Shown here: positions 7,244 to 45,404 of the stretch, in pieces | How the letters are laid out: every line of letters begins with the position of its first letter | Numbering within the stretch: the stretch's first letter is position 1 | Assembly: GCF_014696315.1 (NCBI RefSeq) | Contig: NZ_JACJPX010000014.1 | Location: forward strand, 1 to 64,000 | Length of the DNA: 64,000 nucleotides | Source of the DNA: Calothrix membranacea FACHB-236 | Lineage (GTDB): Bacteria > Cyanobacteriota > Cyanobacteriia > Cyanobacteriales > Nostocaceae | Direction of reading: 5' to 3' | The notes under the pieces: model-generated | The model's input: the letters and a program-made list of their open reading frames with translations, nothing else | What the model was told of the DNA's origin: nothing | Databases searched by the model: none | Translations under genes and position numbers: made by a program

Positions 7244-7705
7244 TTATTTGATTGGATGGCTCAGTTCGGATTTTTGTTTAATTGCTAACTTCTGAATCTC
7301 ATATTCTTCTTGGGTAATAATTCCACAAGCCAAAGCCGCATTGAGTTTAGAAATTTGAACTTCCACTGCTGAGTGAGAAGATTCATGGATTAATTCAGAT
7401 CTCTTCATTTCAAACTCACCTTGAGTTAAAATTCCCACATCAAGGAGGTTCTGAAGTTTTATCAGCTTCTCTTCTGCGTCTGCACACTGATTAAAAGCTT
7501 GCATTAGTCCTTCAATTTCTAACCTTTTCGCGCTGTAGGCAATTTCATCAATGAAACCTTGCTCGTAAGCATCTCTGAGATGCTTGAGTTTAACCTCCAA
7601 AGCACTCTGAGATTCCATAAGCGCTAACTCTACAGCAGATTGAGCTTTTTCACCAGACATAACTTCTAGATCCCGATTATTTTCGTGGTAATTTTTGTTA
7701 GTCAT
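7244..7705 (-). CDS. SHOCT-repeat protein, truncated by an in-frame stop
   Basis: 153 residues, cytoplasmic, helical and charged. Three SHOCT-like repeats of about 40 residues are visible, with cores YEQGFIDEIAY (about residues 47-57), LDVGILTQGEFE (88-99) and LACGIITQEEYE (129-140), each in the pattern L-x-x-G-I/F-I/L-T/D-x-x-E-F/Y. SHOCT modules are short C-terminal helical hairpins thought to mediate oligomerisation or nucleic-acid and membrane association; no partner domain exists here. AAGGG lies before the ATG. A fourth repeat lies in frame just past the TAA at 7244-7246, so the protein appears to have been shortened. Confidence 0.6.
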   Translation of the reverse strand: MTNKNYHENNRDLEVMSGEKAQSAVELALMESQSALEVKLKHLRDAYEQGFIDEIAYSAKRLEIEGLMQAFNQCADAEEKLIKLQNLLDVGILTQGEFEMKRSELIHESSHSAVEVQISKLNAALACGIITQEEYEIQKLAIKQKSELSHPIK

Positions 7706-8018
7706 ATTTCGCCCTTATAAATCTTGATGTATAAGCAGATTCTCATACCAATCCAAATAATGTTTGCGACCGATAAATATTTCTAAAGACACAATATTGT
7801 TGTGTCCTTACCTATTTGTCATATCTTGTTCAAATTGGTATCAAGTTTGCCTATTTTAGAATTCCCTGAATTTAATCTGCACTAACAATAAAGTTAAGAA
7901 TTCCGATTACTTACATACTCAGACTTGATTGCTAAATTTGCTTAATATTACAAAATTCCGCAAAATCAACGACGACAATAAACTAACTTAACTTATCAAA
8001 TAGCTATCATCATCAAAA
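7706..8018. other. Intergenic region between the SHOCT gene and mutL
   Basis: 313 bases, AT-rich. Holds one small palindrome (GACACAA, 5-base loop, TTGTGTC) near 7787-7805 and two copies of a CCAATC/CCAATTTG-like segment. No gene seen. Confidence 0.45.
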
Positions 8019-9722
8019 TTAAATTCCATGACTCTTACCAATCACCCAATTACGCCGGAAAAAGCGCGCTAAAGCAGATTCTTCTAATGATAAATAAATA
8101 GGTCTTCCGTGGGGACAGGTGCGCGGATTGCGAGTGCGTTGCCATTGATCTAAAAGTGTTTGCATCTCTGGCAAACTCATCGGTGTACCATTGCGTATAG
8201 CGCTGCGACAAGCAACAGCAACTTGCGCCGCTTGTAAATCACCACCTAAACTCAGTTCTAAAATTGCATCGGCACAATCTTCTCGCTGCTGCAACATTGC
8301 AGGGACATTGCGAACTGCCCAAAGTTGTTCGCCAAAGGTTTCTATATCTAAACCAATGCGTTGTAATTGTGCTACTTGTTTTGGCGTTAATTGATAGAGA
8401 ATAATTGCCGGTTCAACAGGTATCATTTGCCAGTTATCGCATAATTGCTCATATAAAACTCGCTCATGAGCAATATGCTGTTCTACTAACCAAACTCCCT
8501 CAGAATGTTCCACCACAATATAAGTATTGCTAACTTGAGCAACAGCTTTTAAAGAATAGGGATTACTCAATCCTGAGTGCTGAGTATTATCCTCATCTTT
8601 GGGATTTTTCGGATTAAAATTGTAGCCACCTTTAGCTTCTGCGGCTTTGAGTAATTTACTCACGCGGGTGATATGAACCGCTTCTTTAATATTGGCAGAA
8701 CTTAGACGAAGTGCTTGCTCAATTCCTTGGGTAACTTGTTCTTGCCAATAACCAATTTCATTAAGATAAATTTCTGTTTTCGCTGGGTTACGATTCCAGT
8801 TAATTTGGTCTGGAGAAATATCAAGATGTAAGAAACAAACTGGATAGCGATCGCGTGGTAATGTGCGATGAAATGCTGCTAAAATTGTCTGCTCTAGTTC
8901 TGCTGACTTTACCATCCGGCCGTTAATGGCTACACGTACCCAATCTGGACGATGACGATGACAGCGATCGGGTAATCCTACCACTAATGTCAGTTCTGAG
9001 TGCTGAGTTCTGAGTTCTGAGTTAGCTGGATGGGGTATTGCTAGTTTGACTTCTTGGAAGTCGGCTTCTTTAACTTGGGGTATGAACTGCGGTATTAATT
9101 TTTTGCTAGTGCTAGCCGGATAAATCGTAAACCAATCACGGTCATTTTGTTGCACTTGCCAGGTAATTTGGGGATGACAAAGGGCAATTTGCTGAATTGT
9201 GGTTTGCACGGCTTTCATTTGCTGTGCAACTACTGGTAACCCCTGACGACGCGCTATACAATTGGCAAATAAATTTGAGACTGTCACCACTGTACCAGGT
9301 GCGATCGCAGCGACTTCTACTTGCTCAACTTTCCCACCATCACTATAAACAACTCGCCATCCCCAATTCTCACCTGCTGGACGACTCAAAATTTCTAGGT
9401 TTGACAAATTTGTCAAACTGTGAAGTGCTTCTCCCCGAAACCCTAAACTGCTAATTTTCCATAAATCTGCACAAGTATAAATTTTACTGGTGCTGTGGGT
9501 TGCTGCGGCTTTTTGCAAATCATCTAAGTTCATTCCGCAACCGTTATCGGCTACGCGCACTCGCCACTGTTGAGGCCATAGAGAAACAACAATTCTCGTC
9601 GCACCTGCATCCAAGGAATTTTCTACTAATTCCCGCACGACAGAAGCTAAAGAGTCGATCACCTCTCCAGCTGTAATTAGATATACAACTTCTGTGGGTA
9701 AAGCGTGAATAGTAGATGTCAT
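8019..9722 (-). CDS. mutL: DNA mismatch repair protein MutL
   Basis: 567 residues. N-terminal GHKL ATPase: VRELVENSLDAGATRI (ATP/Mg), VADNGCGM, THSTSKI and SLGFRGEALHSL are all present. The C-terminal dimerisation/endonuclease domain is visible: EQHIAHERVLYE (in place of the usual DQHAxxExxxxE), ACRSAIRNG, CPHGRP and a final ARFFRR. MutL couples MutS recognition to strand incision. The first aspartate of the metal-binding motif is glutamate here and Ala is Ile, which may alter nicking. A linker segment around residues 232-242 (positions 8997-9030) is made of GAGTTCT-type heptamer repeat DNA, as found between genes elsewhere in this window. Ordinary length for cyanobacteria; start ATG 9722 is well supported. 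Confidence 0.93.
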   Translation of the reverse strand: MTSTIHALPTEVVYLITAGEVIDSLASVVRELVENSLDAGATRIVVSLWPQQWRVRVADNGCGMNLDDLQKAAATHSTSKIYTCADLWKISSLGFRGEALHSLTNLSNLEILSRPAGENWGWRVVYSDGGKVEQVEVAAIAPGTVVTVSNLFANCIARRQGLPVVAQQMKAVQTTIQQIALCHPQITWQVQQNDRDWFTIYPASTSKKLIPQFIPQVKEADFQEVKLAIPHPANSELRTQHSELTLVVGLPDRCHRHRPDWVRVAINGRMVKSAELEQTILAAFHRTLPRDRYPVCFLHLDISPDQINWNRNPAKTEIYLNEIGYWQEQVTQGIEQALRLSSANIKEAVHITRVSKLLKAAEAKGGYNFNPKNPKDEDNTQHSGLSNPYSLKAVAQVSNTYIVVEHSEGVWLVEQHIAHERVLYEQLCDNWQMIPVEPAIILYQLTPKQVAQLQRIGLDIETFGEQLWAVRNVPAMLQQREDCADAILELSLGGDLQAAQVAVACRSAIRNGTPMSLPEMQTLLDQWQRTRNPRTCPHGRPIYLSLEESALARFFRRNWVIGKSHGI

Positions 9723-9818
9723 AAATTACAGTGTAGGCGAAAAGCCAGCACTGAATACAATAAGCAATTTTGTTTACCCTTCAACAAAATTTTTATTAAT
9801 TTTAAAGCCATGTTGTTC

Positions 9819-9851
9819 AGATCCCCGACTTTTTGAAAAAGTCGGGGATCT
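9819..9851 (-). terminator. Strong perfect hairpin between the deaminase-like gene and mutL
   Basis: AGATCCCCGACTTTTT pairs with AAAAAGTCGGGGATCT almost without a loop. It lies 36 bases after the stop of the deaminase-like gene and upstream of mutL, both on the minus strand, so it can separate their transcripts. The same palindrome type is a common dispersed repeat in Nostocales. Confidence 0.6.
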
Positions 9852-9886
9852 ATGACTATTGGGCAAATCCAAAACTGGCTGCGGAA

Positions 9887-10930
9887 TTATTCTCTCATTG
9901 CCAAAACTTTCGGAGGTTCCGGTTTCAGCAAGTCATTTAATAGAGATGCAGGACGTTCGCCATGAGGCCAAGCAAAAGCATGACGGAATGCGGCATCCTG
10001 ACAAGCTTGCAACTGTTTAAAGTTAATAATGTCGTATGTCAAAAGATTTTCATACTCAAATGGCAGACGCACATTATGCAAACCAGCGTTATCAGTACAA
10101 ATTGCAATGTCTACGCCAGCTTCAAAACATCGGTCAAAAACTAACTTTAGTTGACGGATATCCTGTAAAGTACCAGTTTTGATGTAAGTTGTGGGGCAAA
10201 CTTCCAAACACTGTCCTCTTTGCGCCAACTCTGGGAGTAGCTCAGGATACAGTAGGGGAATTTGAATACCGTGTCCAATCCGCTTCAGATAGGGCAAAAG
10301 TTCGGTGTAACAGCCTGCAGTAGTTTCGTAAAGATGCCCTGTGGTATTAATACCTAAAGAACAGGCATAATCATACAGATTCATCCATTCTTCTAAACGT
10401 TCAGCATAGTGGCTATCACCCCCGGCGATATCTACCGCACAAACATACTGTTTGCTTTGCGCCGCCAAATCAACAATTGCCTTATTCACCTCATAAGGTA
10501 GGCGCGAGTGCATACAAAGAATTTGGCTAGTCACAATGGGATATTCTTCCAACTGACTGGCTTTACCCACAACCTCGACAATTTCTGCCATCTTGTCAAT
10601 TCTTTCGGATTGACTTAAATGTTCAGGTGTCCGTAAATAGGGGGTGTAACGTAGTTCCAAATAAGCCAGGTTCTCAAATATATAAGCACCCCGTAACAAT
10701 CGGTAGATAAAATAAGGCAAAGTTTCTACAGTCTGTACACTTTCTACCAAAGTGTGTAATTCTAAATACTCGTCTAAGGTATTACGAGGTTTGGTATAAA
10801 ACTCTTCAAATTCTGGATAGTTCGCAAAGCGGGAAATTAACTCAGACGTATGTCTCTCGAAATATCGCCATAACACACGAGGTACAACCGAACCGCCCAG
10901 ATGCCGATGCAATTCAGCGTATAAAGCCAT
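9887..10930 (-). CDS. Adenosine deaminase-like amidohydrolase
   Basis: 347 residues, the usual length of the metallo-dependent adenosine/AMP deaminase family. N-terminal ELHRHLGGS gives the Zn-binding H8 and H10. Later motifs are GHLYE (family: HAGE, keeping His and the catalytic Glu), RIGHGI, EVCPTTY (family: ECPTSN) and ICTDNAG (family: NTDDP, so the second aspartate is asparagine). The Zn-site and proton-transfer residues are thus present, but two substrate-contact positions differ from true adenosine deaminase. It may deaminate another purine or related ring compound. It is monocistronic, flanked by a strong hairpin downstream. Confidence 0.8.
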   Translation of the reverse strand: MALYAELHRHLGGSVVPRVLWRYFERHTSELISRFANYPEFEEFYTKPRNTLDEYLELHTLVESVQTVETLPYFIYRLLRGAYIFENLAYLELRYTPYLRTPEHLSQSERIDKMAEIVEVVGKASQLEEYPIVTSQILCMHSRLPYEVNKAIVDLAAQSKQYVCAVDIAGGDSHYAERLEEWMNLYDYACSLGINTTGHLYETTAGCYTELLPYLKRIGHGIQIPLLYPELLPELAQRGQCLEVCPTTYIKTGTLQDIRQLKLVFDRCFEAGVDIAICTDNAGLHNVRLPFEYENLLTYDIINFKQLQACQDAAFRHAFAWPHGERPASLLNDLLKPEPPKVLAMRE

Positions 10931-11040
10931 ATTGGTGTTTTCCGGAGAAATTTTACTAATCTTAACAAGAACTTCGGGAAAAAAAATCTATACCTTTAGA
11001 GAGATTGTATAAAGTTTTGGAGATGGGGAATTGGTAATGG

Positions 11041-11165
11041 GTGTTTCTCCCTCGTCTACCTCATCTACCTCATCCCCCACCCTGCGGGAAGCCCTTCGGG
11101 TTCAGCAGTTGCTTCAAGTCGGGAAACCCGCCCAACGCAATGCTTCACCGCTACGCGTCTACATC
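11041..11165. repeat. GC-rich interspersed repeats between two minus-strand genes
   Basis: A CTCATCTACCTCATC tandem followed by CCACCCTGCGGG, GCCCTTCGGG and CGCTACGCGTCTACATC blocks. Similar blocks occur at about 29715-29775. Non-coding repeat DNA of the type scattered through Nostocales genomes; it inflates ORFs on both strands. Confidence 0.5.
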
Positions 11166-11181
11166 TCCCAATAGGTACTCA

Positions 11182-13713
11182 CTACTCACAACTCAGGACT
11201 TTTATTCTAGCGATTGTTTGTAATAATTCGTTGCTAGTACAAGGTTTAGATAAAAATGCACTAACACCCATATCAGTAACTTCCTTGATGTTCTGATGAG
11301 ATAAAAGTCCACTCAAAGCAATAATTTTGACATGGGGATTAATTTTTTGTAATCTGCGAATTGCGATCGCACCATCCATTAATGGCATCATCATATCTAA
11401 CAACACTACACTGATTTGCTGCTGATGTTGAGCATAAATTGCTACTGCTTCAATGCCATTACTAGCAGTTAACACCTGATAATTATTTTTTTCTAAGGAT
11501 GATTTGGTAATTTCTAGAATTGCAGCTTCGTCATCCACTAGCAAAATTAATTCGCCATTTCCTTTTGGTGCTGCAATTTCGGGGGTATGCAGAGATTGAG
11601 TGCGATCGCTCAATGCTGGTAAATATACTTTAAACTCTGTGCCTTGTTTAACTTCGCTATTTACATTTACAAAACCGTCGTGGTTTTTAATAATACCTAT
11701 GGCTGTAGAAAGTCCTAACCCTGTACCCTTACCCACCTCTTTTGTGGTAAAAAAGGGTTCAAAAATTCGCTCTTGAATTTCTGGTGGTATTCCTGTACCT
11801 GTATCGCTAACAGAAATGGCAATATAAGCACCTATTTGAGCATCGATATTAATTTGGGTTGATTTCTCATCAATCACCACATTTTCTGCCGAAATCTTTA
11901 AGATACCACCTTCAAGCATGGCATCACGAGCATTAACTACCAAATTCATTAGCAATTGATGCAATTCGGTGGTATTACCAGACACATACCAAAGATTCGC
12001 GGGTAAATTTACTTCACAGGTAATCGATTTAGGAAATGTTTGTTGGACAATTTGCTCAATTTCCTGTATCAAAAGTGTAACTTGCACAATTGTCTTTTTG
12101 CCTTCAATACCTCGAGCAAAGGACAACACTTGCTTGAGCAAATTAGCGCCACGTTTGACATTACTTTCTAGCGTTTGCAGAATGCGTTGACTCTGTTGGT
12201 CAGGTAATTTCATCCGCAATAGCTCAACTGACATTAACACAGGGGAGAGAACATTGTTAAGGTCATGGGCAATCCCACCTGCTAGAGTACCAATACTTTC
12301 TAACCGTTGCGATCGCAAAAGCTGTGCTTCTAGTTGTTTCTTTTGGGTAATTTCTGTACTGACGCTGAGAATCGATTTTGGTTGATTGTGAGTATCCCGC
12401 ATGAGTGTCCAGCGGCTTTCAACAATAATTTCCTTTCCCTGTTTTGTAAGTTGCTGCAATTCACCGCGCCATTCACCTGTACGCAGCACCGTCAAAAACG
12501 CATCTTGTAGTTGTGGTGAACTAGCTTTGTACAACAAATCAACAACATTTGCACCCAAAGCTTCCTCAACCTTCCAGCCGTAAATACGTTGAGCACCTTG
12601 ATTCCAAAATAATATTTGGTTGTGGATATTTCTGACTACAATCGCATCAGTTGCAACATCTAAAAGTGCAGCTTGTTCGCGAATTTTCTGTTCTGCTTGT
12701 TGGCGCTTGGTAATATCTCGCGTTACCGCCAAATGCAAAAATGTACCATCAGCTTCGTTACGTAGCGGTACAGCATGAGTTTCCAACCAACGACGAGTAC
12801 CTCTACTTCCCACAATCTCGTATTCTAAAGTCCCTTTTTGTCCTTGACAAACACGTTCATGTAGAAATTCAAAGGCTTCCCTGTATTCTGGTGAGATAGT
12901 TGCAGCAACTGGCTGTCCAATCACAGTTTCTGCACTTTCTAGCTCCAACATTGCCAATCCAGAAGCATTGATTTCTAATAACTTACCATCCCTAGCAATT
13001 AACTTGAGACACTCTGGTTCTGCATCAATAATTGCTCGCAGTCGATTCTCACTTTGGCGTAAATTTAATTCTGTTTGCTGAAGTCGCTTGATGTAACGCC
13101 ATAACAAGTCATATAACAAAGCCACCAATAATAAATCTATGACAGCAGCTAATATAAATGTCGCCATTGACTTACGGGAAGTCTTTTGTAACTGCTGAGT
13201 TCGCTGTTGTAATATTTTTTGCTCGGCTGCTAAAGAGTCGTGAATAAATTTAGGGATATCATTGCTCAGTGTCTCTTGTTGGTGAGACAACACTAATTGT
13301 TTCGCCGCATCAAACCCTTGGTTTTGCAAAACAACAACTTCTGCTTGCAAGATGTTGAGTCTGTCAGTAATTTTTTGTTCTAGTGCAGCAATCCACTGAT
13401 GATTTGGATGCGATTGAGTTAGCTGTTTAAGACTTTGAATTTGACTATTAATTTCTTGGCGTGCTTGCAGATAAATAGCTAAATTATTTGCTTCTATAGT
13501 TATTAAGTAACTACGCTGTGCCGTTTCAGCATTGTTTAGCGTTGTCAGTAGCGTTTGTACCTGAGTAATAATTTCTTGGGAAGATGTTACTAATTGCCGA
13601 TTCTGTACCAGTTGCATCGTTGTGCTATGGGAAACTACAGCATTCGTAAACAAAACCGCCAAGACTAGAATAAATACTGCTCTCAGCTTCTGAATGACAG
13701 ACCATTTCATCAT
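11182..13713 (-). CDS. CHASE3-PAS-PAS hybrid histidine kinase with C-terminal receiver
   Basis: 843 residues. A membrane helix at about 11-28, a periplasmic CHASE3-like helical domain (40-175), a second membrane helix (183-203), two PAS/PAC units (222-340 and 345-460), a HisKA dimerisation domain with H483 in GGIAHDLNN, and an HATPase domain (NLVVNARDAM; DTGTGIPPE; GKGTGLGLS). A receiver domain follows, with VDDEA at 726-730 and phospho-acceptor D773 in LLDMMMP. The pattern is that of a membrane stress sensor with an internal phosphorelay; its output partner is not adjacent. The signal is unknown. It stands alone with long flanking intergenic DNA. Confidence 0.9.
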   Translation of the reverse strand: MMKWSVIQKLRAVFILVLAVLFTNAVVSHSTTMQLVQNRQLVTSSQEIITQVQTLLTTLNNAETAQRSYLITIEANNLAIYLQARQEINSQIQSLKQLTQSHPNHQWIAALEQKITDRLNILQAEVVVLQNQGFDAAKQLVLSHQQETLSNDIPKFIHDSLAAEQKILQQRTQQLQKTSRKSMATFILAAVIDLLLVALLYDLLWRYIKRLQQTELNLRQSENRLRAIIDAEPECLKLIARDGKLLEINASGLAMLELESAETVIGQPVAATISPEYREAFEFLHERVCQGQKGTLEYEIVGSRGTRRWLETHAVPLRNEADGTFLHLAVTRDITKRQQAEQKIREQAALLDVATDAIVVRNIHNQILFWNQGAQRIYGWKVEEALGANVVDLLYKASSPQLQDAFLTVLRTGEWRGELQQLTKQGKEIIVESRWTLMRDTHNQPKSILSVSTEITQKKQLEAQLLRSQRLESIGTLAGGIAHDLNNVLSPVLMSVELLRMKLPDQQSQRILQTLESNVKRGANLLKQVLSFARGIEGKKTIVQVTLLIQEIEQIVQQTFPKSITCEVNLPANLWYVSGNTTELHQLLMNLVVNARDAMLEGGILKISAENVVIDEKSTQINIDAQIGAYIAISVSDTGTGIPPEIQERIFEPFFTTKEVGKGTGLGLSTAIGIIKNHDGFVNVNSEVKQGTEFKVYLPALSDRTQSLHTPEIAAPKGNGELILLVDDEAAILEITKSSLEKNNYQVLTASNGIEAVAIYAQHQQQISVVLLDMMMPLMDGAIAIRRLQKINPHVKIIALSGLLSHQNIKEVTDMGVSAFLSKPCTSNELLQTIARIKVLSCE

Positions 13714-34753: not shown

Positions 34754-35743
34754 ATGAAGACACCATTTGTTGTCACAATAATTCAAAAAGTTGTTGAGCA
34801 AATTGGAGCAGTATTAGTATTAGACCCAGAATGTAAATATGTCGGTCACATTACTTTTAAAAATGGTAAGAAAACTGTTTTTCGCTCTACTCATTTCAGT
34901 ATAAATGGTTTTGGAGCAGCAGAGCTAGCAAAGGATAAAGGCTCCTCTAGTTTTTTTCTTAATCATTTTGGCTATAAAGTTCCTGAAGGTAAAACTTTTT
35001 TTGATGAGAAACTATGCAAACAAATTGATACCTTAAGAAATATAGATGATGGTTTTAACTATGCTAAATATCTAGGATTACCTGTAATAGTTAAACCTCT
35101 TAATCTCAGCCAAGGTAGATTAGTAACTAAGGTTTATAATAAGCGAGAATACTATCAAGTAGCAAAAAAAATCTTACAAATCACTCCCGGCTTCATTGTT
35201 GAGCGCTTCCATATTGGCAATGACTACAGAATTGTAGTCTTAGATAAAGAAGTGATGATTGCTTATCAGAGAATTCCTTTATTTATTGCGGGAGATGGAG
35301 AATCTACTATTTTAGAGCTTTTGCATCAAAAGCAAGCGATTCTAAATCAAAATTACAGAAAAATTATTGATTTTGAAGATTTTAGAATTGCTCAAAAATT
35401 AAAAAGGCAAAAATTAACCTTTGAGAGTGTACTTCCCCCAGGTAATATTGTTTATCTTTTAGATAATGCAAATTTATCAAGTGGCGGAGATGCTGTAGAT
35501 TTAAGCGACAGTATTCATCCTGATTTTAAAAAATTGGCAATTAATATTGCTAAAGATATGGGTTTAAGGTTGGCAGGAGTGGATATTATTGCTAGCGATA
35601 TCACAATGCCAATGGTGGATTATACCATTATCGAAGTTAATGGCTCTCCGGGATTGCTCAATTATGCTTCGTTGGGTGAATTGCAAACCCGGAGAGTCGA
35701 AAATTTATATCTTAAAGTTCTGCTGACAATTGAGAATGAATGA
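34754..35743 (+). CDS. ATP-grasp ligase resembling the cyanophycin-synthetase ATP-grasp domain
   Basis: 329 residues, a stand-alone ATP-grasp fold. Visible: YLGLPVIVKPLNLSQGRLV (ATP-binding lysine), FIVERFHIGNDYRIVVL (lid strand), GDGESTILELL, NLSSGGDAVDLSDSIHPD (matching the NLSTGGxAxDxTD block of cyanophycin synthetase), and IIEVNGSPGLLNYASLGE with the Mg-binding E and N. Such enzymes join a carboxylate to an amine using ATP; substrate here is unknown. There is no Mur-ligase half as in CphA. It is isolated by 0.6 kb and 1.2 kb of non-coding DNA and is very AT-rich, consistent with acquired DNA. Confidence 0.8.
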   Translation: MKTPFVVTIIQKVVEQIGAVLVLDPECKYVGHITFKNGKKTVFRSTHFSINGFGAAELAKDKGSSSFFLNHFGYKVPEGKTFFDEKLCKQIDTLRNIDDGFNYAKYLGLPVIVKPLNLSQGRLVTKVYNKREYYQVAKKILQITPGFIVERFHIGNDYRIVVLDKEVMIAYQRIPLFIAGDGESTILELLHQKQAILNQNYRKIIDFEDFRIAQKLKRQKLTFESVLPPGNIVYLLDNANLSSGGDAVDLSDSIHPDFKKLAINIAKDMGLRLAGVDIIASDITMPMVDYTIIEVNGSPGLLNYASLGELQTRRVENLYLKVLLTIENE

Positions 35744-35904: not shown

Positions 35905-36929
35905 TTCAAATGTTGCAGCAAAAAGTGAATTACTCTTCAGTAAACAGGGTTTAGGTTAAAATTTCAATAATTTTAGGTTAAGTTTCCGTAAAGAATCTAT
36001 CAAAGATTCGTGAAGCCTACAATAAAAATCAGCCATCCCACAGTTGAAATATATGGCAGTAGGCGGATTCAGAGGAATCTTTGACTCATTAATAATATTG
36101 AGAAAATGATTCTCACACGAAAATTTATAGCTGACTAGAGGGTTTTCTCCCCTCATGGCTGTTGGGGACTGGGGACTGGGGCCCCTACGACCGCAGGGAG
36201 TGGGGATTAGGGGTAATGGGGATTGGGAAAAAGCAGGGGAGCAGGGGGAAAAATAACAAACACCAATTACCAATTACCAATTACCAATTACCAATTACCA
36301 ATTACCAATTACCAATTACCCATTACCAATTACCCATTACCAAATAACAAACAAGAGATAATTCGCGATCGCACCCTCTTCCTAAAATGCGATGCCTACG
36401 GCGGGCTACGCCTACGCGAATTTCACCAATCATTACTGCCAAATTTATTTCTACACCCTTATCTAACTTTCTGCCTTTAGCCTCTTTAAGGCAGATATGA
36501 GAGATGCACTTGATTTTCAGGATGTGTCTAAATGGATTATCTAATAGATCAAAACATAAATAGTTAGCAAAAAATACAAAATCACTATTTTTATGCTTGT
36601 TAATTTTTTCTAAAGAAAATTGGGAACATCAGTTCCTTACTAACATTCTTTGTGATTACATATAATTCGGAAAATTTTTTAACGCCTATAAACGTGGAGC
36701 TAGCCTTGGGTAAAGTATAGAAGTTCTATTTCTATTTGTAGCAAGCTTGTAAAACTGTAAGTAGATTAATTTTGAATTTTGAACTTTGAATTTTGAATTC
36801 CCCATAGGGGTTGAGTGCTATGTATGGTAAAAAATTGTGAATTTTTAATTTTAAATTCCTGTCAGGCAAGGGTGATATTTTTTGTGTTATAAAACTCACA
36901 GCAATTTATCTTAGAGCAAAAAATACTCT
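35905..36929. other. Repeat-rich intergenic kilobase before the dynamin/SrfB-like cluster
   Basis: Contains GGACTGG heptamers near 36160-36185, a long CCAATTA array (36263-36342), a GCCTACGGCGGGCTACGCC palindromic repeat near 36393, and then about 450 AT-rich bases. No gene seen. Confidence 0.5.
36263..36342. repeat. Heptamer tandem array (CCAATTA units, about 11 copies)
   Basis: Nearly exact seven-base units in a row, the last few changed to CCCATTA. It is the longest such array in the window. Confidence 0.9.
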
Positions 36930-39464
36930 ATGGAAACAGAACAACTGGAGCGTTTTAAAGAGTATGGCGAATTCATCCTCCAGAAATTAGACTCTGTACC
37001 TGAATATCCCTCCAAGCAAGAAGATTGGGTACCAGCTAGTCTTGATGAGAGTCTGTTTCGCCTGCGGGAAGCTGCTCAAAAAACTGTAGAACTGGCTACC
37101 TCTCCTGTCAAAATTGGGGTGATGGGTGAATTTAGCAGTGGGAAAACTTTGCTGCTAGGTAGCTTAATTGGCTACGCTGACGCTTTACCAGTGAGTGAAA
37201 ATCCAACGACAGGGAATGTTACAGCGATACATATCATTCCTCAGGAAGGCTTTGCGACTACCCAGCTAGGCAATTTTACCGTAGAGTACCTGGATGATGA
37301 AGGTGTGCATGATTGTCTGCGGTTTATGTTGGGTGAAGCCAACCGTCGCACAATTGCTGCTGGACTTCCACCTGCGCTGTTGTCGAAGTTGAAGGAACCC
37401 AAAGATATTCTCAACTGGTGTGAGGAAACCTGGAAAAGTAGCAATAATTTAGAGTTACGTTATCTGCTGCGTGAGTTAGTGACGTTTATCCGCGCTTATC
37501 TATCTTACGGTGAGGCGATGTGTGGTGGATGCTACCAAATTAATGCTACCACTGCCCGTGAAGGGTTGCAGTTACTCGAGCAGCCAATGGCGATTCAAAC
37601 CCTCAGCTTTGATGATTTACCACCCGCTCATATTAAATTACCAAGTCCACCGCAAAGATTAGCCTCAAAGTTATTACAGAATAGTTTCCCACTGATTCGC
37701 CGTGTAGATATTGAAGTGAAAATCTCACGGGAAATTTGGGACGTTACGGGTGCTTCAGAATTTATTTTATTGGACTTTCCAGGGTTGGGTGCTTCTAATT
37801 CGGGAACGCGAGACACATTTTTATCCCTGCGAGAATTAGCTGAGGTGCAGACAATTCTCGTATTGCTAAATGGGAAATCTCCTGGAAGCGATCGCGCCAA
37901 TAAAATCTTTACCATGATGCAGCAGCAGCGACCAGGACAAGACCTCAAGGATTTGATTCTGGTGGGTGTGGGACGCTTTGATCAACTTCCCTTGGAAAGT
38001 GAAGGTGGGGAAAGGGAACTCGATCAACTGATTAACGATAGCGCCGATCATCATCCCTTACAGGAAAGCAGCGTTTTTCAGAAACTTAAAGTTTTACAAA
38101 CAACTATTGACGCAGCCAGCGCCTTTACTACTCAAAAAGACCGTATCGTTTTACTATCACCACTTTTAGGCCTAGCAGATTTAGCAAAGCGTTCTACCTC
38201 AGTAAAAGCAGGTTCGCCAGAGTTTTTAGCTAACCTTGACTATCCCAATTATTTAGACCGTTCCAAGCATCTACAAGAAAAATGGGGACGTTTAAGCGAT
38301 CGCTTATTAACAACTGATGCGCGTAATTATCTTGGCAGACAACTGGGTTACTTTGCTCAAGATGGGGGTATTAGTAAGCTGCGAGAATTAATTCAAAAAC
38401 ACGTCGCTACCCACGGACTGAAGCAGTTGTATGAAGATACAAAACGCGCTGCGGAAGTTGTGCGTCAGCAACAAGATAATCTCAAAAATATTCTCCACGA
38501 AATTCACGAACAAGGAATACCCACAGGAGACAGTCCCGCTTTTTTGGAATTACGGGAAGCAATTGAAAATTTAGATAAAAGCTATAGAAATTTCCAAAAA
38601 GATTTAGGAAAAGAACCACTCAAAGATAGACGCAGTGTTGCTGTTAGCGATGTGGTGAAAGATGAATTAACTTTTAGAATCCTCAGTTGGAGTCAATGGA
38701 CTTTACTGTTCAACAAAGTTAATAATGGTACAATCGCCCTCACCGAATCTAAAGGTGCAGCTGGGAAGTTATTTGAGCGGGGAAACCGAGTTAATATTAC
38801 AATTCCCACCAAAAGCGACGATTTTTATCCCATCTTTGCCAAGACGATTCAAGAAGTAGAAGAATTTGCGCGCGATCGCATTAGTCAAGCAATTGGAGAT
38901 TTGCTGACCAAATTATCAAATTACGTCGCGAAGGAACGCGAATTTCTGCAAACAAATATCAACCCAGAGATGGAATCAGATATTGAATCAAAATTTGGTA
39001 TCGAAGAAGCGGAACTTTTTTATAAACTACTGTTAGGCTGTGACCCTAATCAATGGCAAGAAGCAATCATTTCTGAGATTCATAATCAAGAAAAATCAAT
39101 TTCACCGGAAATGATATTTCCCTTAGCGCGTCAAGATGAAAAACATAATATAGGGCAAATTTTTGATTGGGCCCCTGAACGCAATGGTGCGCCTAAAGCA
39201 AACAATCATCAACTTTTTGTCCTACGTCTCAGAGATGAAATTACTGCTAGCGCCAGTTTGCATCTTGTGCAATATGTCAGTGAAGTGAATCAAAAAGTGA
39301 ACGCTGAATTACAAGGAATTTTGGATCAAATTATTCCTAGTTTGCAAAATATTTCTAAAAAAGAAAATTTACTTAGACATATTGCTGCTGGCGATACACC
39401 ATCACAATCATCTATTCCCACTTGGCTACAAATTCTCGCTGATGTCTCAGCCAAAAATTGGTAA
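36930..39464 (+). CDS. Dynamin-like GTPase
   Basis: 844 residues. GTPase motifs: G1 GEFSSGKT at 66-73, a conserved TT at 93-94 in NPTTGNVTA (G2) and G3 DFPGLG at 282-287; a VGRFDQLP segment (347-354) stands where G4 is expected but lacks the usual T/NKxD. G1 to G3 spacing is long because of a helical insert (about 120-265). The C-terminal half (about 480-840) is helical with coiled-coil character, as in bacterial dynamin-like proteins. No transmembrane helix is evident. It is the first of three co-oriented genes with an SrfB-like ATPase and an unknown protein; a SrfC-like role in a tripartite complex is inferred from that context. Confidence 0.8.
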   Translation: METEQLERFKEYGEFILQKLDSVPEYPSKQEDWVPASLDESLFRLREAAQKTVELATSPVKIGVMGEFSSGKTLLLGSLIGYADALPVSENPTTGNVTAIHIIPQEGFATTQLGNFTVEYLDDEGVHDCLRFMLGEANRRTIAAGLPPALLSKLKEPKDILNWCEETWKSSNNLELRYLLRELVTFIRAYLSYGEAMCGGCYQINATTAREGLQLLEQPMAIQTLSFDDLPPAHIKLPSPPQRLASKLLQNSFPLIRRVDIEVKISREIWDVTGASEFILLDFPGLGASNSGTRDTFLSLRELAEVQTILVLLNGKSPGSDRANKIFTMMQQQRPGQDLKDLILVGVGRFDQLPLESEGGERELDQLINDSADHHPLQESSVFQKLKVLQTTIDAASAFTTQKDRIVLLSPLLGLADLAKRSTSVKAGSPEFLANLDYPNYLDRSKHLQEKWGRLSDRLLTTDARNYLGRQLGYFAQDGGISKLRELIQKHVATHGLKQLYEDTKRAAEVVRQQQDNLKNILHEIHEQGIPTGDSPAFLELREAIENLDKSYRNFQKDLGKEPLKDRRSVAVSDVVKDELTFRILSWSQWTLLFNKVNNGTIALTESKGAAGKLFERGNRVNITIPTKSDDFYPIFAKTIQEVEEFARDRISQAIGDLLTKLSNYVAKEREFLQTNINPEMESDIESKFGIEEAELFYKLLLGCDPNQWQEAIISEIHNQEKSISPEMIFPLARQDEKHNIGQIFDWAPERNGAPKANNHQLFVLRLRDEITASASLHLVQYVSEVNQKVNAELQGILDQIIPSLQNISKKENLLRHIAAGDTPSQSSIPTWLQILADVSAKNW

Positions 39465-39664
39465 ATATCCTTCTTAATTCTCTGTCTTCTTATTCTCTCT
39501 CTTCCTGTACTTCGTGTCTTCTCTGCGAGACGCTTCGCGAATGCGGTTCGTTTATCAAGACTTTTGAAACGAACCACAAAGGACGCAAAGGACGCAAAGT
39601 AAAAAGACAAGAAGAAGATATTCAGCGAACCTCTGCGTTTCAAATTATACCTTCAACAAATCCT

Positions 39665-42625
39665 ATGAACTCCTCCCAACTAAATAGCGAACAACAAAAA
39701 AGATTTCCCGGATGGTTAGCTGTCGATTTTGGTACATCCAACTCTACCGTTACCCTTTTCGATCCCATTGAAGTACCCATCGCTGAAGTATTACCCAGAG
39801 AACAGGAAATGCGACTGCGCGATCGCATGGCGCAATGGCTGAATTCTCCGGCGGGAATTGCTTTACCCGATGTCAGTGCTAGCGATTGGGATAAATTTAT
39901 TGCTGATATTAGTAAAAATCTGGAAATCGAACCTAGCCGCTTAAGTGAAGTGTTTGAAAGTGATAATAGAGAACGATTTTTAGAAGCAATTCGCCAAATT
40001 GAACTATGTTTAGGTACAAGCGATCGCTTTCGGCGTGCTGTTAGTAAAAAGCTTTATCAGATATATCATGAAGTCTTCCGCGTTCCTACCCTAGAATCGC
40101 AAAATCTCATTCCAGTTGTTCTAGATATTGATCGTCGCAGTACCGAAATTAAAAGTGAGTTAGAAATTTCACGATTATCGGCCTTACAACTGAAAATGGG
40201 AAGGGAAGCTAGCGACAACAGAAAAAAAGCGATCGCCCAAGGAACTAGTAGTGTTTTAAAAGAAATTATCAGCCGATTTCATCACTCGCCCAAACGCTAT
40301 TTTGGACAGGATCGTTCTTTCCCAGTAATTTTAGATGAAAACGAAGAAACCATCAATGTTAACCAATTAATTCAAGCAGCTTGGGGACATTTAATTGAGT
40401 TAACCGAAGACTACCGCCAACGCGCTAGACGCAGATTTTCTGAAGGGGGATTTCTCTCTGCAGTTGTTACCTATCCTACTGTCGCACCGCCTGTTGTGCG
40501 TAAGGAAGTTAAGGAATTAGTTGAACAATTAGGATTAGATGATGTTCAAACTGCTTATGATGAAGCCGTTTCTGTAGCTATATTTTTTCTGTGGCGAGAA
40601 TTTGGTGGGAATCTCAATATTGGGATTGAATCTTTCAAGACTCGTTGTCGCCAAGAAGGAAATAAATGGTCACAAAATGTTCTGGTTTTAGATATTGGTG
40701 GTGGAACTACAGATTTAGCTTTAATTGAATTAACTTTAGAAGATAAAACGCCTTTCTTTGCTGATAATGAAGACCGAGGATTAGGTGGACGCTATTATAA
40801 ACTGACACCGAAACTATTAGGTTCATCTGGGCATTTACAGCTAGGTGGCGAATTAATCACCCTGCGAATCTTCCGACTTTTGAAAGTTGCGATCGCTGAC
40901 TTTTTGTTAACAGCAGTTGCTACAGGTAATTTAACCAGTGACAAGCTAGAAGATTTAATTAATTCCGAATTAAATGAACGGTTTATTGAAAACGGGCAAT
41001 TCAAAAGCGGTAGCATTTTAAAATGCTTGGATAAAGAAAATCCCGAAGGTGACGCTGCTTATAAAGATGCTTTAGATACTGCGGAAAAAGTCTTACCTAC
41101 CCGTTGGCAACAAGCACCGCAACGTCTGCAAACATTTTATACCCTCTGGGATCATGCCGAAACTGCCAAAATCAAACTCGGACAAAAGACCCCAGAAGAC
41201 GGTTCAATTTTGACCTTCAGCCTTTCTGAACAAGAAATTTATGAATTACTAGTTCAAAGTGCTATTAAATACCAAGCAAAAGATACTAGTAGTATCTGCG
41301 TTACCATCGATAGTCAGCAATTTGATCGCGCCGCATCATCAGCCATCAAAGAAGCGATCGGTATAGCCAAAGGATTGATGGATAGTCGCTTACGTCCAGA
41401 AGATGCCAAAGTAGACTCATGGAATTCCCACAAAGTAGATTGGTTGATTTTATCCGGTAAAACTTGCAACCTCGACTTGGTACAGCGCCACATCTACCAA
41501 GAATTTAGTAAATCTCCTTACTTCGTTTGGAACCCGGAACGCATTACCTTTGTGTTGGAATTTACTAAATTAGCTACCTCTGCTGGTGCTTGTTATGCCG
41601 AGAAATTACGGAGACTACGTTTTGATCCCGAAGAATCAAAAGGATTACTCCGTAAAGGTGCAAACCAACTAGAAATTGATGTCAAAAATCTGTTTTATTA
41701 TTTACCTTGCAACTTTAAACGCAAAACTCAAAGTAACGAACTGCTGACAATCTTTAAAGCTGGACAAGAACTTTATCAACTAGGCGCTGATGAAAGCGTT
41801 GCTAAAGTTCGGACTGAGTGGCAAGGTATACAGTTAACAAATATTATTTACCGTCAAGATTATGAAGATGGTGATTTGCGGCTGTGGGGTAGCTTTGATG
41901 GCAAAACTTTGATGGAAAAATTGGGATTATCAGAAGCAGACTTCCTGAAAAAAATTAAAGTCCAATTTGAAATTGACCAAACCTTACAATTTAGTGTCTT
42001 ACTTTGTCAAGGAAACCCTCATTATTTAATTGATGTTTCTGGTATTGATGTTAATTCTGTAATCTCTGCCGCTTCAGGAACTTCAGGCTTATTTGCTGAT
42101 GGTAAATTAAAGTGGAATATTGCTGTAGAAAGACCTAATAAAGACTTAAATGATGGTGATATTGCCATCAATGTAATTGAGTCAGCAACAGTAGATCAAC
42201 CAGATGCTTATCATCTTGTATTTGAAGCTGATAAAGATGTTAGTAAATCTCTACAAGAATTCCATTATTTGCGTGATGGTTCACCAGAACCAGGAACCGG
42301 ATTAATCAGTAATCCTCTACCTCCCTTCCCCAAAAATGGACAACACACCTTCTATGTTGTGCAGACAGATGCACAAACCAATACGAAAAAATGGATACGT
42401 ATTGGCGCATTAAGTAAACCCGATTTTGCTACAGATTACCCTTGCCAATATCGGGTCAGCATAGACAATCATGGGATTTTACGAATGCACGCAGGTGAAG
42501 TAACTTACTGGACATCAAGTGATCAAAAATGTCTTAAACAAGAAGGTTGTGTTTACCGTGCTGAACTGGAATTACAACCCAACGAAGTTGATAAAGAACG
42601 CGATCCATTTTGCGGAATTCATTAA
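39665..42625 (+). CDS. SrfB-like actin/Hsp70-fold ATPase
   Basis: 986 residues from ATG 39665. The open frame before this (from 39458) encodes repeat DNA (GGACGCAAA units), so it is excluded. Actin-fold ATPase motifs: phosphate 1 VDFGTSNSTV (residues 20-29), phosphate 2 LDIGGGTTDLAL (342-353) and the adenosine motif LILSGKT (594-600). The approximately 250-residue insertions and the final beta-rich region (about 700-986, with CQYRVSIDNHG) are beyond normal Hsp70. This architecture and length match the 'virulence factor SrfB' family. It follows the dynamin-like gene by 200 bases and precedes an unknown gene, suggesting one ATPase/GTPase machine. Confidence 0.8.
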   Translation: MNSSQLNSEQQKRFPGWLAVDFGTSNSTVTLFDPIEVPIAEVLPREQEMRLRDRMAQWLNSPAGIALPDVSASDWDKFIADISKNLEIEPSRLSEVFESDNRERFLEAIRQIELCLGTSDRFRRAVSKKLYQIYHEVFRVPTLESQNLIPVVLDIDRRSTEIKSELEISRLSALQLKMGREASDNRKKAIAQGTSSVLKEIISRFHHSPKRYFGQDRSFPVILDENEETINVNQLIQAAWGHLIELTEDYRQRARRRFSEGGFLSAVVTYPTVAPPVVRKEVKELVEQLGLDDVQTAYDEAVSVAIFFLWREFGGNLNIGIESFKTRCRQEGNKWSQNVLVLDIGGGTTDLALIELTLEDKTPFFADNEDRGLGGRYYKLTPKLLGSSGHLQLGGELITLRIFRLLKVAIADFLLTAVATGNLTSDKLEDLINSELNERFIENGQFKSGSILKCLDKENPEGDAAYKDALDTAEKVLPTRWQQAPQRLQTFYTLWDHAETAKIKLGQKTPEDGSILTFSLSEQEIYELLVQSAIKYQAKDTSSICVTIDSQQFDRAASSAIKEAIGIAKGLMDSRLRPEDAKVDSWNSHKVDWLILSGKTCNLDLVQRHIYQEFSKSPYFVWNPERITFVLEFTKLATSAGACYAEKLRRLRFDPEESKGLLRKGANQLEIDVKNLFYYLPCNFKRKTQSNELLTIFKAGQELYQLGADESVAKVRTEWQGIQLTNIIYRQDYEDGDLRLWGSFDGKTLMEKLGLSEADFLKKIKVQFEIDQTLQFSVLLCQGNPHYLIDVSGIDVNSVISAASGTSGLFADGKLKWNIAVERPNKDLNDGDIAINVIESATVDQPDAYHLVFEADKDVSKSLQEFHYLRDGSPEPGTGLISNPLPPFPKNGQHTFYVVQTDAQTNTKKWIRIGALSKPDFATDYPCQYRVSIDNHGILRMHAGEVTYWTSSDQKCLKQEGCVYRAELELQPNEVDKERDPFCGIH

Positions 42626-42850
42626 ATTGAAGCATGAAGGATGAAATTACTAGCAATCTGTTTGATGTTGGGAAATAAATCTTGATTTATGCACCAACAA
42701 TTTAGACTGCTGAATTCGTCGTAGAATGATAAAAAATCTTTCGCTCCTGTTCTATCCTGAATATCTGATTTTTCATACTACCCTTCGGAAACGCTAACGG
42801 CGGACATCCTTTATACTTCATCCTTGCTAGTAAAACTGGAGACGAAATTC

Positions 42851-43945
42851 ATGCAGCACCTACGTCAGCTATTGGCAATAGAAAACTCCCAATTAGCCCA
42901 ATTATTAAGGTTTAGCCTGTACGGAATCGAAGCATCTTTAAAGCAAGCACAAAAAGAATTACCTAGCGATCCAGGGGCTAAATTATGCGACGAGTTGCTG
43001 CAAGAAATTCGTAGCCTTTTGCAAACTAAATATCAAAAATCTTCAGATTTAAACTCTAATAATGAATTAAAACTAAGTCGCATCAAAGAAGCTTTTAATA
43101 CAGATAAAGAACTCAAATTATATTTAGGAAATTTTCAATTACAAAGCCAAACAGATTCAGAATTATGGAACGAGATACAACGCAAATTACTACGAGTTCC
43201 TGAAGATTTGGCGACAGCTTGGCGACAACGTGCCTTGACTTTGGCTCAAGAAGTTGGTGCAGTAGAAGATAATTCCAATCTCTACACCCTACCCTTCATC
43301 AGAGACGAAATTATTTACCCTGGATTGAGTGGTACTATCCAAGCTCAAGGCTTATATTTATCTCAGAAATTACTGCCAAATTCGGAAATTATTCAAAATA
43401 ACGAATCCAGCGATTTAAATCTACTAGCTGGTTATTTGCTGCTTTGTATAAAATTTATCGAAATTGACCCGGATTTACACCACGCCTTAAAAAGCATATT
43501 TAGCTTTGATATTATTTCCTTACACTCCAAGCCAGAACAGCAAACCCAATATATTGAAGCATTAACAGGCCGCTTTCAGCGTACTCAAAAAGCTGTAGAA
43601 AATGCTGATCCAGTCTTAACTCTACGTGCTTGGATTGACATTGACGAAGCCATACACTCTTTAGTATTTGTTCCGCCAAGCGATCGCTATTCTTGGTGGG
43701 GTAACCTACAACAAGAATCTCGCCGGATGCTGAAAAAATTTGTCGATCAGGCGATCAATGCAGGTAACGAAGTCAGAATACGCCAATTATCAGGGCTTTA
43801 CGCCGATATATGTGCCTTAACTAAAGATGACTTACAACTCGATTGTGGCGGTAATCCTGGCGAAGTTCTGGCTTGTCTGCGAGTCTACGTGCGAATTAAT
43901 CAAGAAGAGTTACCAGGGCGTGTAATATTTCGCTCATCACGCTAG
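42851..43945 (+). CDS. Unrecognised protein, third gene of the dynamin/SrfB-like cluster
   Basis: 364 residues from ATG 42851 (MQHLRQLLAIENSQ), chosen over the TTG at 42824 because GGAG lies 10 bases ahead. Mostly helical and soluble; no signal peptide or membrane helix. The C-terminal part (about 240-364) contains RFQRTQKAVENADPVLTLRAW and a final VYVRINQEELPGRVIF. No known family recognised. It is co-oriented with the two large ATPase genes (225-base gap) and by position could be the SrfA-like adaptor of the set; this is inference. Confidence 0.65.
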   Translation: MQHLRQLLAIENSQLAQLLRFSLYGIEASLKQAQKELPSDPGAKLCDELLQEIRSLLQTKYQKSSDLNSNNELKLSRIKEAFNTDKELKLYLGNFQLQSQTDSELWNEIQRKLLRVPEDLATAWRQRALTLAQEVGAVEDNSNLYTLPFIRDEIIYPGLSGTIQAQGLYLSQKLLPNSEIIQNNESSDLNLLAGYLLLCIKFIEIDPDLHHALKSIFSFDIISLHSKPEQQTQYIEALTGRFQRTQKAVENADPVLTLRAWIDIDEAIHSLVFVPPSDRYSWWGNLQQESRRMLKKFVDQAINAGNEVRIRQLSGLYADICALTKDDLQLDCGGNPGEVLACLRVYVRINQEELPGRVIFRSSR

Positions 43946-44194: not shown

Positions 44195-44374
44195 CTAGAG
44201 GATACCCCAGAAGTGTAAAACTCCTTGGCCCGAAAAAACTTCTACTAGAATCGCTGCTATAAAACCAATCATTGCAAAACGACCATTCCAGTTTTCACTC
44301 TGAGGAGTGAAGCCCCAGCGTAAAGCGTTAGGATCTTCAGAAACTGTAGGTGTAGGATTCTTCGTGCCTGTCAT
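44195..44374 (-). CDS. High-light-inducible protein (Hli/SCP, single-helix chlorophyll-binding)
   Basis: 59 residues from ATG 44374, with GGAG 8 bases before it (a GTG further upstream is weaker). One membrane helix with the chlorophyll-binding core [16 protein letters not shown], the ExxNxRxAM motif of the Lhc/Hli family, and a short hydrophobic C-terminus. These proteins dimerise in the thylakoid and quench or store chlorophyll under high light. A strong HLR1 element sits just upstream. Confidence 0.92.
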
Positions 44375-44588: not shown

Positions 44589-45404
44589 ATGTTTAAAAGT
44601 CCACTCCGTTATCCAGGCGGTAAATCAAAAGCAATAAATCAAATAATTGAATACTTACCAGACAATTTTTCTGAATTTAGAGAACCATTTGTAGGTGGTG
44701 GTTCTGTATTCATTTACTTAAAGCAAAAATTCCCCAATCTCAAAATTTGGATTAACGATTTAAACCGCGAATTATTTCTATTTTGGAAATTTGCTCAATC
44801 TGATATTTCTGATTTAGTTAAAGAAATTCGTCATATTAAAAATAAATATACAGATGGTAGATTATTATTTACAAAATTAACAACCGTAGATATTAACCAG
44901 CTATCTGATTTTGAAAGAGCAGTTCGCTTTTTCGTTCTCAATAGAATTACATTTAGTGGAACTGTAGAATCTGGTGGTTACTCTCAAGAAGCTTTCCATA
45001 AACGCTTTACTAATTCATCGATAGACCGTCTGGAAAAATTAGAAAGCATTTTATCAAACGATATTCTTATTACTAATTTAGATTACAGCGAATTATTATA
45101 TGCACCAGGCGAGAAAGTATTTCTATTTTTAGATCCGCCCTATTTTATAGCTACCAAATCTAAGCTTTATGGCAAAGGCGGTAACTTACATACATCTTTT
45201 GAGCATCAAAAATTTGCAGAAATATTAAAACAATGCCATCACGATTGGTTAATTACCTATGACGATTCGCCACCAATTCGAGAAAATTTTCAATGGGCGA
45301 ATATTTTTGAGTGGGAATTGCAGTATGGGATGAATAATTATAAACAGAGTAATGCTGCTAAAGGGAAAGAGTTATTTATTACTAACTATAAAATTTCCTC
45401 GTAG
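44589..45404 (+). CDS. D12-class DNA adenine N6-methyltransferase (Dam-like), orphan
   Basis: 271 residues. N-terminal PLRYPGGKSKAINQI (SAM-binding entry), motif I FREPFVGGGSVF and catalytic motif IV DPPYF are intact, with the FVLNRITFSG segment of the alpha group. Dam-like enzymes of this class usually methylate GATC. There is no restriction endonuclease next door, so it is an orphan methylase, comparable to DmtA of Anabaena. GATC lies within GCGATCGC octamers, so HIP1 sites could be its main substrates; target specificity is not proven here. Confidence 0.88.
   Translation: MFKSPLRYPGGKSKAINQIIEYLPDNFSEFREPFVGGGSVFIYLKQKFPNLKIWINDLNRELFLFWKFAQSDISDLVKEIRHIKNKYTDGRLLFTKLTTVDINQLSDFERAVRFFVLNRITFSGTVESGGYSQEAFHKRFTNSSIDRLEKLESILSNDILITNLDYSELLYAPGEKVFLFLDPPYFIATKSKLYGKGGNLHTSFEHQKFAEILKQCHHDWLITYDDSPPIRENFQWANIFEWELQYGMNNYKQSNAAKGKELFITNYKISS

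Follow-up and report, generated by a model that had tools for sequence, protein, structure and literature searches.

Linked genes for a dynamin-like protein, an SrfB-related ATPase and an orphan protein in the Nostoc family of cyanobacteria

A 64,000-nucleotide stretch of the 8.81 Mb Calothrix membranacea FACHB-236 genome (contig NZ_JACJPX010000014.1, positions 1 to 64,000; hereafter the window) carries three long, co-oriented genes on its plus strand. Gene 1, or dyn (36930-39464), encodes a dynamin-like protein of 844 amino acids, assigned by the Pfam family Dynamin_N and its predicted fold. Gene 2 (39665-42625) encodes a 986-residue SrfB-related ATPase of the ASKHA (Hsp70/actin) superfamily, for which PF07520 (SrfB) is the best-scoring family. 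Gene 3 (42851-43945) encodes an orphan protein of 364 residues, mostly helical by prediction and matched by no family above cut-off. The trio is kept together in nearly all Nostoc relatives examined and tends to be lost together, and therefore probably forms one machine. Our preferred reading, to which we assign a probability of about 0.45, is that the three proteins make up a single membrane-associated machine driven by nucleotides. Directly behind it stand the predicted dynamin fold and the G1 and G3 motifs of gene 1, the ASKHA motifs of gene 2, the conservation of the genes, and their largely joint presence and loss. Because the closest named relatives by gene 2 identity are Nostoc linckia FACHB-104 (99%) and Nostoc carneum NIES-2107 (98%), we call the window's family the Nostoc family.

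An earlier note, made from the sequence alone, had described three open reading frames here and the motifs GEFSSGKT, DFPGLG, VDFGTSNS, DIGGGTTD and LILSGKT. The frames were borne out by their coordinates and by recurrence in relatives, and every motif was found in the window. Gene 2 begins at ATG 39665 in a frame already open from TTG 39458, and gene 3 at ATG 42851 in a frame open from TTG 42824, leaving gaps of 200 bases (gene 1 to gene 2) and 225 bases (gene 2 to gene 3).

Searches for relatives covered the genomes of cyanobacteria. Of 65 named relatives, 63 have the three genes in the order and orientation seen in the window, a recurrence that is not due to chance. Dyn lies upstream of gene 2 in 64 of these loci (gap 119-1973 bases, median 626) and gene 3 downstream of gene 2 in 63 (gap 28-356, median 138); the exceptions are L058, which is cut by a contig end, and L052, which has no gene 3 in its stretch. 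Protein sizes are similar in most loci, at 844-887 (gene 1), 986-1176 (gene 2) and about 360-450 (gene 3) residues.

The arrangement was also found in deeper branches. All three genes stand in order in 16 of 21 further deep-branching family stretches with an intact gene 2 (L126-L128 and L156-L173, a set without L129 and L174, which are broken, and without L175, a close relative). Dyn lies outside the stretch in L156, L158 and L171, at distances of 6.7 kb, 4.4 kb and about 360 kb, respectively. Gene 3 is outside the stretch in L128 and L160, yet both genomes match it. An extra gene separates genes 2 and 3 in L127, L165, L166 and L168. Beyond the family, stretches from 16 of the 18 genomes were compared (L154, L186-L197 and L199-L201, with G634 and G808 left out). 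The trio was in order in 15, and the L188 stretch runs out ahead of gene 3. L200 has fragmented copies of genes 1 and 2, L196 has a split gene 2, and in L154 a gene presumably for a metal transporter stands between genes 2 and 3. With starts set by homology, the gap between dyn and gene 2 is about 2-35 bases in L166, L168, L169, L192, L195 and L196, and that between genes 2 and 3 is 5-20 bases in L164, L195 and L196.

Presence and absence follow the same pattern. Of the 217 genomes from the window's family, 209 have gene 3, as do 201 of the 206 of high quality. Five of the eight genomes without it are also without a gene 2 or gene 1 match (G412, G419, G534, G535 and G545; the G534 assembly is 88% complete, and G545 gave one 21.7-bit match to the first 100 residues of gene 1). 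Two more (G405 and G542) hold dyn and a gene 2 fragment on contigs that end where the remainder is expected, and the last (G403) has dyn alone. Close queries detected gene 2 in 43 genomes, every one a family member, out of 386 from the phylum. A broad profile matched 88 of 388 genomes of the order, comprising 70 family members and 18 of about 317 others, the latter spread over eight families. Among the genomes listed for this profile a single family member (G412) was missed; 280 non-matching genomes stand outside that list. Matches were fragmentary in G334, G634 and G676, and split over two contigs in G463. The earlier note had raised the prospect of genes standing apart and independently distributed. 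Our data mostly gave the opposite outcome, G403 being the one exception, and the linked trio it described proved to be conserved as a unit, in co-occurrence within the family and in order and strand among relatives.

Two side observations concern individual genomes. In G334, genes 1 and 2 have decayed to pieces with stops (L129, about 7700-11500, minus strand), and gene 3 matches in three pieces. At 4.9 Mb this genome is smaller than those of G415 and G416 from the same genus (7.8-7.9 Mb), both of which give strong gene 3 matches; the decay could reflect genome reduction. G430 (L169 and L168) and G466 (L198) each carry two clusters from different positions in the gene 2 tree.

Pairwise distances across 33 loci were correlated between dyn and gene 2 (r 0.977), dyn and gene 3 (0.899), and gene 2 and gene 3 (0.915), with none of 2000 permutations reaching the observed values. 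Trees were built for gene 2, carefully and with long branches flagged, and for dyn, by a quick method; their main groups are common to both. The family falls into two large clades with outside genomes between them. G430 has one copy from each large clade, and the second copy of G466 sits at a third place.

Gene 1 exceeds the Pfam cut-off for Dynamin_N (29.0 bits versus 27), and all 26 aligned relatives match this family at E<=1. Its AlphaFold2 model (predicted local distance difference test, pLDDT, 73.8; predicted template modelling score, pTM, 0.49) combines a G domain with a long helical stalk, the helical-bundle arrangement that marks the dynamin superfamily. The best matches of the model in the PDB are SynDLP (nearest), BDLP, mitofusins, IniA and Drp1. 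As modelled, gene 1 has a dynamin fold closest to that of SynDLP, in line with the dynamin identity proposed in the earlier note. The G1/P-loop motif GEFSSGKT (residues 66-73; 37125-37148, plus strand) is identical in 24 of 26 rows of alignment A5, the remaining two rows each differing by a single conservative change, and the G3 motif DFPGLG (residues 282-287; 37773-37790, plus strand) is conserved in the alignment. The G4 region (about residues 344-356) reads VGVGRF[ND]QLP in 20 listed rows of the 26. While the predicted fold resembles SynDLP (Slr0869, Synechocystis) and BDLP1 (Nostoc punctiforme), gene 1 differs from both in its unusual G4, in giving no sequence-profile match to a solved dynamin and in its linkage to an ATPase and an orphan.

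Gene 2 carries the ASKHA signatures in full. Its motifs follow the order DFGTSN - HSPKRYFG - DEAVS - DIGGGTTD - LQLGGE - LSGKT, which we take to be that of Hsp70-type ATPases. The phosphate-1 motif DFGTSNS (39725-39745) is invariant in alignments A2 and A6. HSPKRYFG (40283-40306), which resembles the Hsp70 catalytic-lysine region, is invariant in A6. The same alignment placed the phosphate-2 motif DIGGGTTD (40691-40714), followed by LLGSSGHLQLGGE, and the adenosine-type motif LSGKT (41450-41464). At the C-terminus, the tail RDPFCGIH (42599-42622; all on the plus strand) conforms to RDPFxGxH, a pattern found in 28 of 28 A6 rows.

Many relatives begin gene 2 with an additional N-terminal domain of about 130-190 residues. 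In the window its place is taken by the 200-base gap (39465-39664), where tblastn found no trace of it. Of the 65 named loci, 24 carry the domain, invariably in frame, and so does G560, which is not a family member; in G566 it forms a separate, overlapping frame. All but one of the 25 deep-branching family genomes that gave a match have it, and that one (G542) shows a C-terminal fragment only. Among the 88 genomes with a gene 2 match, 66 have the domain and 20, including that of the window, do not; G466 has one copy of each kind, and G634 is too fragmentary to judge. G399, from the window's genus, carries it. Taken alone (the L206 piece), the domain matched no Pfam family. It seems to be an ancestral feature that the window's branch can do without.

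Gene 3 had been called an unrecognised subunit, and family libraries and fold search alike leave it so. It matched no Pfam family above cut-off, no NCBIfam family at E<=1 and no PHROGs family at E<=0.01, and its best PADLOC score was E 0.038. A fold search with its AlphaFold2 model (pLDDT 76, pTM 0.65) returned no match.

In the machine that we propose, the gene 1 protein would bind a membrane and assemble there. The gene 2 ATPase would then load, remodel or uncoat the dynamin assembly or its cargo through an ATP cycle, by analogy with Hsc70, which uncoats clathrin coats. Gene 3 may serve as an adaptor or regulator tying genes 1 and 2, perhaps via the RDPFxGxH tail, and the three proteins would form a physical complex. 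The likely role is upkeep or repair of envelope or thylakoid membranes in cyanobacteria. A bolder version, which we consider rather unlikely, is a chaperone-driven bacterial dynamin machine in which an Hsp70-type ATPase assembles and strips a dynamin coat via an adaptor, as an analogue of Hsc70 uncoating. It would have become fixed in the Nostoc family and occur sporadically across the order, with vWA, PP2C and GrpE genes accompanying some divergent versions; the proteobacterial SrfABC complex would be a distant branch whose 'toxin' label hides membrane remodelling.

The neighbours of divergent members come from single genomes and are suggestive only. A vWA-domain gene lies immediately upstream of the trio in G603 and G566. 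Just upstream of the G725 trio (L204, 4188-13448) are genes for an Hsp70-TPR protein, a thioredoxin, a ferredoxin, two Dynamin_N proteins and a GrpE-domain protein, an island that is possibly a second dynamin-chaperone module. Its two Dynamin_N proteins match LeoA/LeoBC in PADLOC, and a PP2C protein is encoded downstream of the trio. G764 has an additional Dynamin_N protein nearby. Other loci outside the family have ordinary neighbours (sigma factor, UbiA, amylase, WD40 and others).

Several observations weigh against one three-protein machine. In G403 (assembly 89% complete) an intact dyn (L207, 4380-6977, minus strand) is followed by unrelated genes, with no detectable gene 2 or 3. It is the sole partnerless dyn seen, and its neighbours are, by eye, presumably FtsH-like and phycobilisome-like genes. 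Gene 3 is apart from the other two in G174, G415 and L052, and plain vertical descent would also yield congruent distances. The gene 1 model is middling, with parts of the G domain below pLDDT 50; aligned to dynamins it reaches template modelling scores of 0.30 at most over the query, which is low, with root-mean-square deviations that are large, and a profile of 15 close relatives (A3) matches no solved dynamin at E<=1. Canonical dynamins have N/TKxD at G4; the gene 1 motif is unusual, and its GTP specificity is therefore unsure. The Hsp70 subtype of gene 2 would follow from motifs and weak matches: Pfam HSP70 scores 13.3 bits, under its cut-off of 20.6, the best Hsp70 in a PDB profile search had E 0.021, and hhalign against one Hsp70 aligned 69 columns at probability 73. 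Gene 2 resembles Hsp70-GrpE systems in its ASKHA motifs and in the GrpE-domain gene near the G725 trio, but it has no recognised substrate-binding domain, and the N-terminal domain of its relatives is without a Pfam match of its own. Two divergent members depart from the tail pattern (RDPFSGKQ in L194, RNPFCGLH in L206), and the GrpE/Hsp70 neighbourhood and PP2C were each found in one genome.

The strongest alternative is that the trio is a cyanobacterial branch of srfABC in reverse order, with dyn as SrfC, gene 2 as SrfB and gene 3 as SrfA, sharing a cytoplasmic job. PF07520 matches all 28 A6 rows at E<=1 (best 3.7e-6), and no family matches more rows. With 24.3 bits, or 26.7 in the genome scan, the window copy itself stays under the cut-off of 27.1, which is passed in 6 of 386 cyanobacterial genomes, two of them only once neighbouring pieces are added. 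The SrfA, SrfB and SrfC reading frames (1395, 3021 and 2682 bp) reportedly encode a heteromeric complex of the three proteins (PMC6950479), and their sizes run parallel to those of genes 3, 2 and 1. According to the same paper, srfABC is distributed among alpha-, beta- and gammaproteobacteria and is commonest in enterobacteria (PMC6950479). Gene 1 is not hit by PF10139 (SrfC) at E<=1, gene 3 found no family, and the SrfB match on gene 2, around DIGGGTTD, covers about 70-120 of 992 profile positions, those listed falling within about positions 507-626. Our comparison drew on family profiles and published sizes. With SrfC unmatched, 'cyanobacterial srfABC' is therefore unproven, and the counterpart relation suggested in the earlier note is not supported. 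Its SrfB assignment stood in part, as SrfB-related by best family and by all aligned rows, and not as membership above the cut-off for the window copy. From such profile comparisons gene 2 appears to be a borderline SrfB relative with intact ASKHA motifs, and we regard a relation of the trio to SrfABC as doubtful, though less so than any other alternative.

Gene 2 could instead form an actin- or MreB-like filament, with the trio serving filamentous cyanobacteria in their cytoskeleton or in division. MreB_Mbl matched more A6 rows than HSP70 did (22 versus 13 of 28), and an actin-like filament is therefore possible; FtsA matched 6. All of these matches are weak and sub-threshold (best MreB_Mbl E 0.005), and SrfB stands ahead of them. 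Two motifs, LGGE and HSPKRYFG, look like those of Hsp70, and the G725 trio has a GrpE neighbour. We consider such a filament improbable.

Least probable of all, by a little, is an anti-phage or conflict system in which, upon infection, the dynamin would work at the membrane and the ATPase and gene 3 would be sensor or regulator. One bacterial dynamin, DynA, is reported to delay lysis after phage infection (PMC9950537). The trio is patchy outside the family and adjoins LeoA/LeoBC-like dynamins in G725. In PADLOC, gene 1 matched LeoA alone over residues 5-102 (23.2 bits, E 7.8e-6), short of the full-length LeoA/LeoBC match that defines the Leo defence system, and the best score of gene 2 was E 0.015. 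Leo partners are further dynamins, and the main text of the Leo paper mentions neither Hsp70 nor DnaK (PMC4159319). Near-universality in the family argues against defence, as does an ordinary chromosomal setting, with dam and then trpD and carA following in many loci. Trio dN/dS (the ratio of nonsynonymous to synonymous substitution rates) was 0.03-0.13 against four relatives, in the range of neighbouring trpD, carA and dam (0.045-0.110 against three of those relatives). Given these values, and with no relative found in plasmid, phage and IMG/VR viral collections, we regard the trio as a constrained chromosomal system, and the defence or contact-dependent killing envisaged in the earlier note is not upheld. 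The trio is probably one cellular machine and not a toxin or a mobile defence island.

The flanks had been described as repeat-rich and gene-poor, which fits one side. The 1,186-base upstream gap contains a tandem array of the 7-base unit ACCAATT (11.7 copies, 36262-36343). The 643-base downstream gap has no tandem array and holds a 59-codon frame on the minus strand (44198-44374), which by eye we take to encode a high-light-inducible (HLIP/SCP) protein. Beyond it lies dam, encoding a D12-class adenine methylase (44589-45404; Pfam MethyltransfD12, 142.8 bits). In 42 of the 65 named loci, dam is found no more than 9 kb downstream of gene 3. Upstream of the trio lies the gene for an ATP-grasp protein (34754-35743; RimK, 48.5 bits) that is similar to a part of cyanophycin synthetase (NCBIfam E 1.5e-48, far under that family's cut-off).

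Searches of the openly accessible literature, with most subscription papers outside their scope, found no description of the trio, consistent with the earlier suggestion that its role in a phototroph is undescribed. Nearly every sampled genome of the Nostoc family contains this module, under constraint like that of its core-gene neighbours and, so far as these searches go, without a described function. If one machine is indeed formed, bacterial dynamins, whose cell roles are mostly unclear, would gain a dedicated ATPase partner that is genetically testable in tractable organisms. The trio would also offer a route to the role of SrfB-type proteins outside pathogens.

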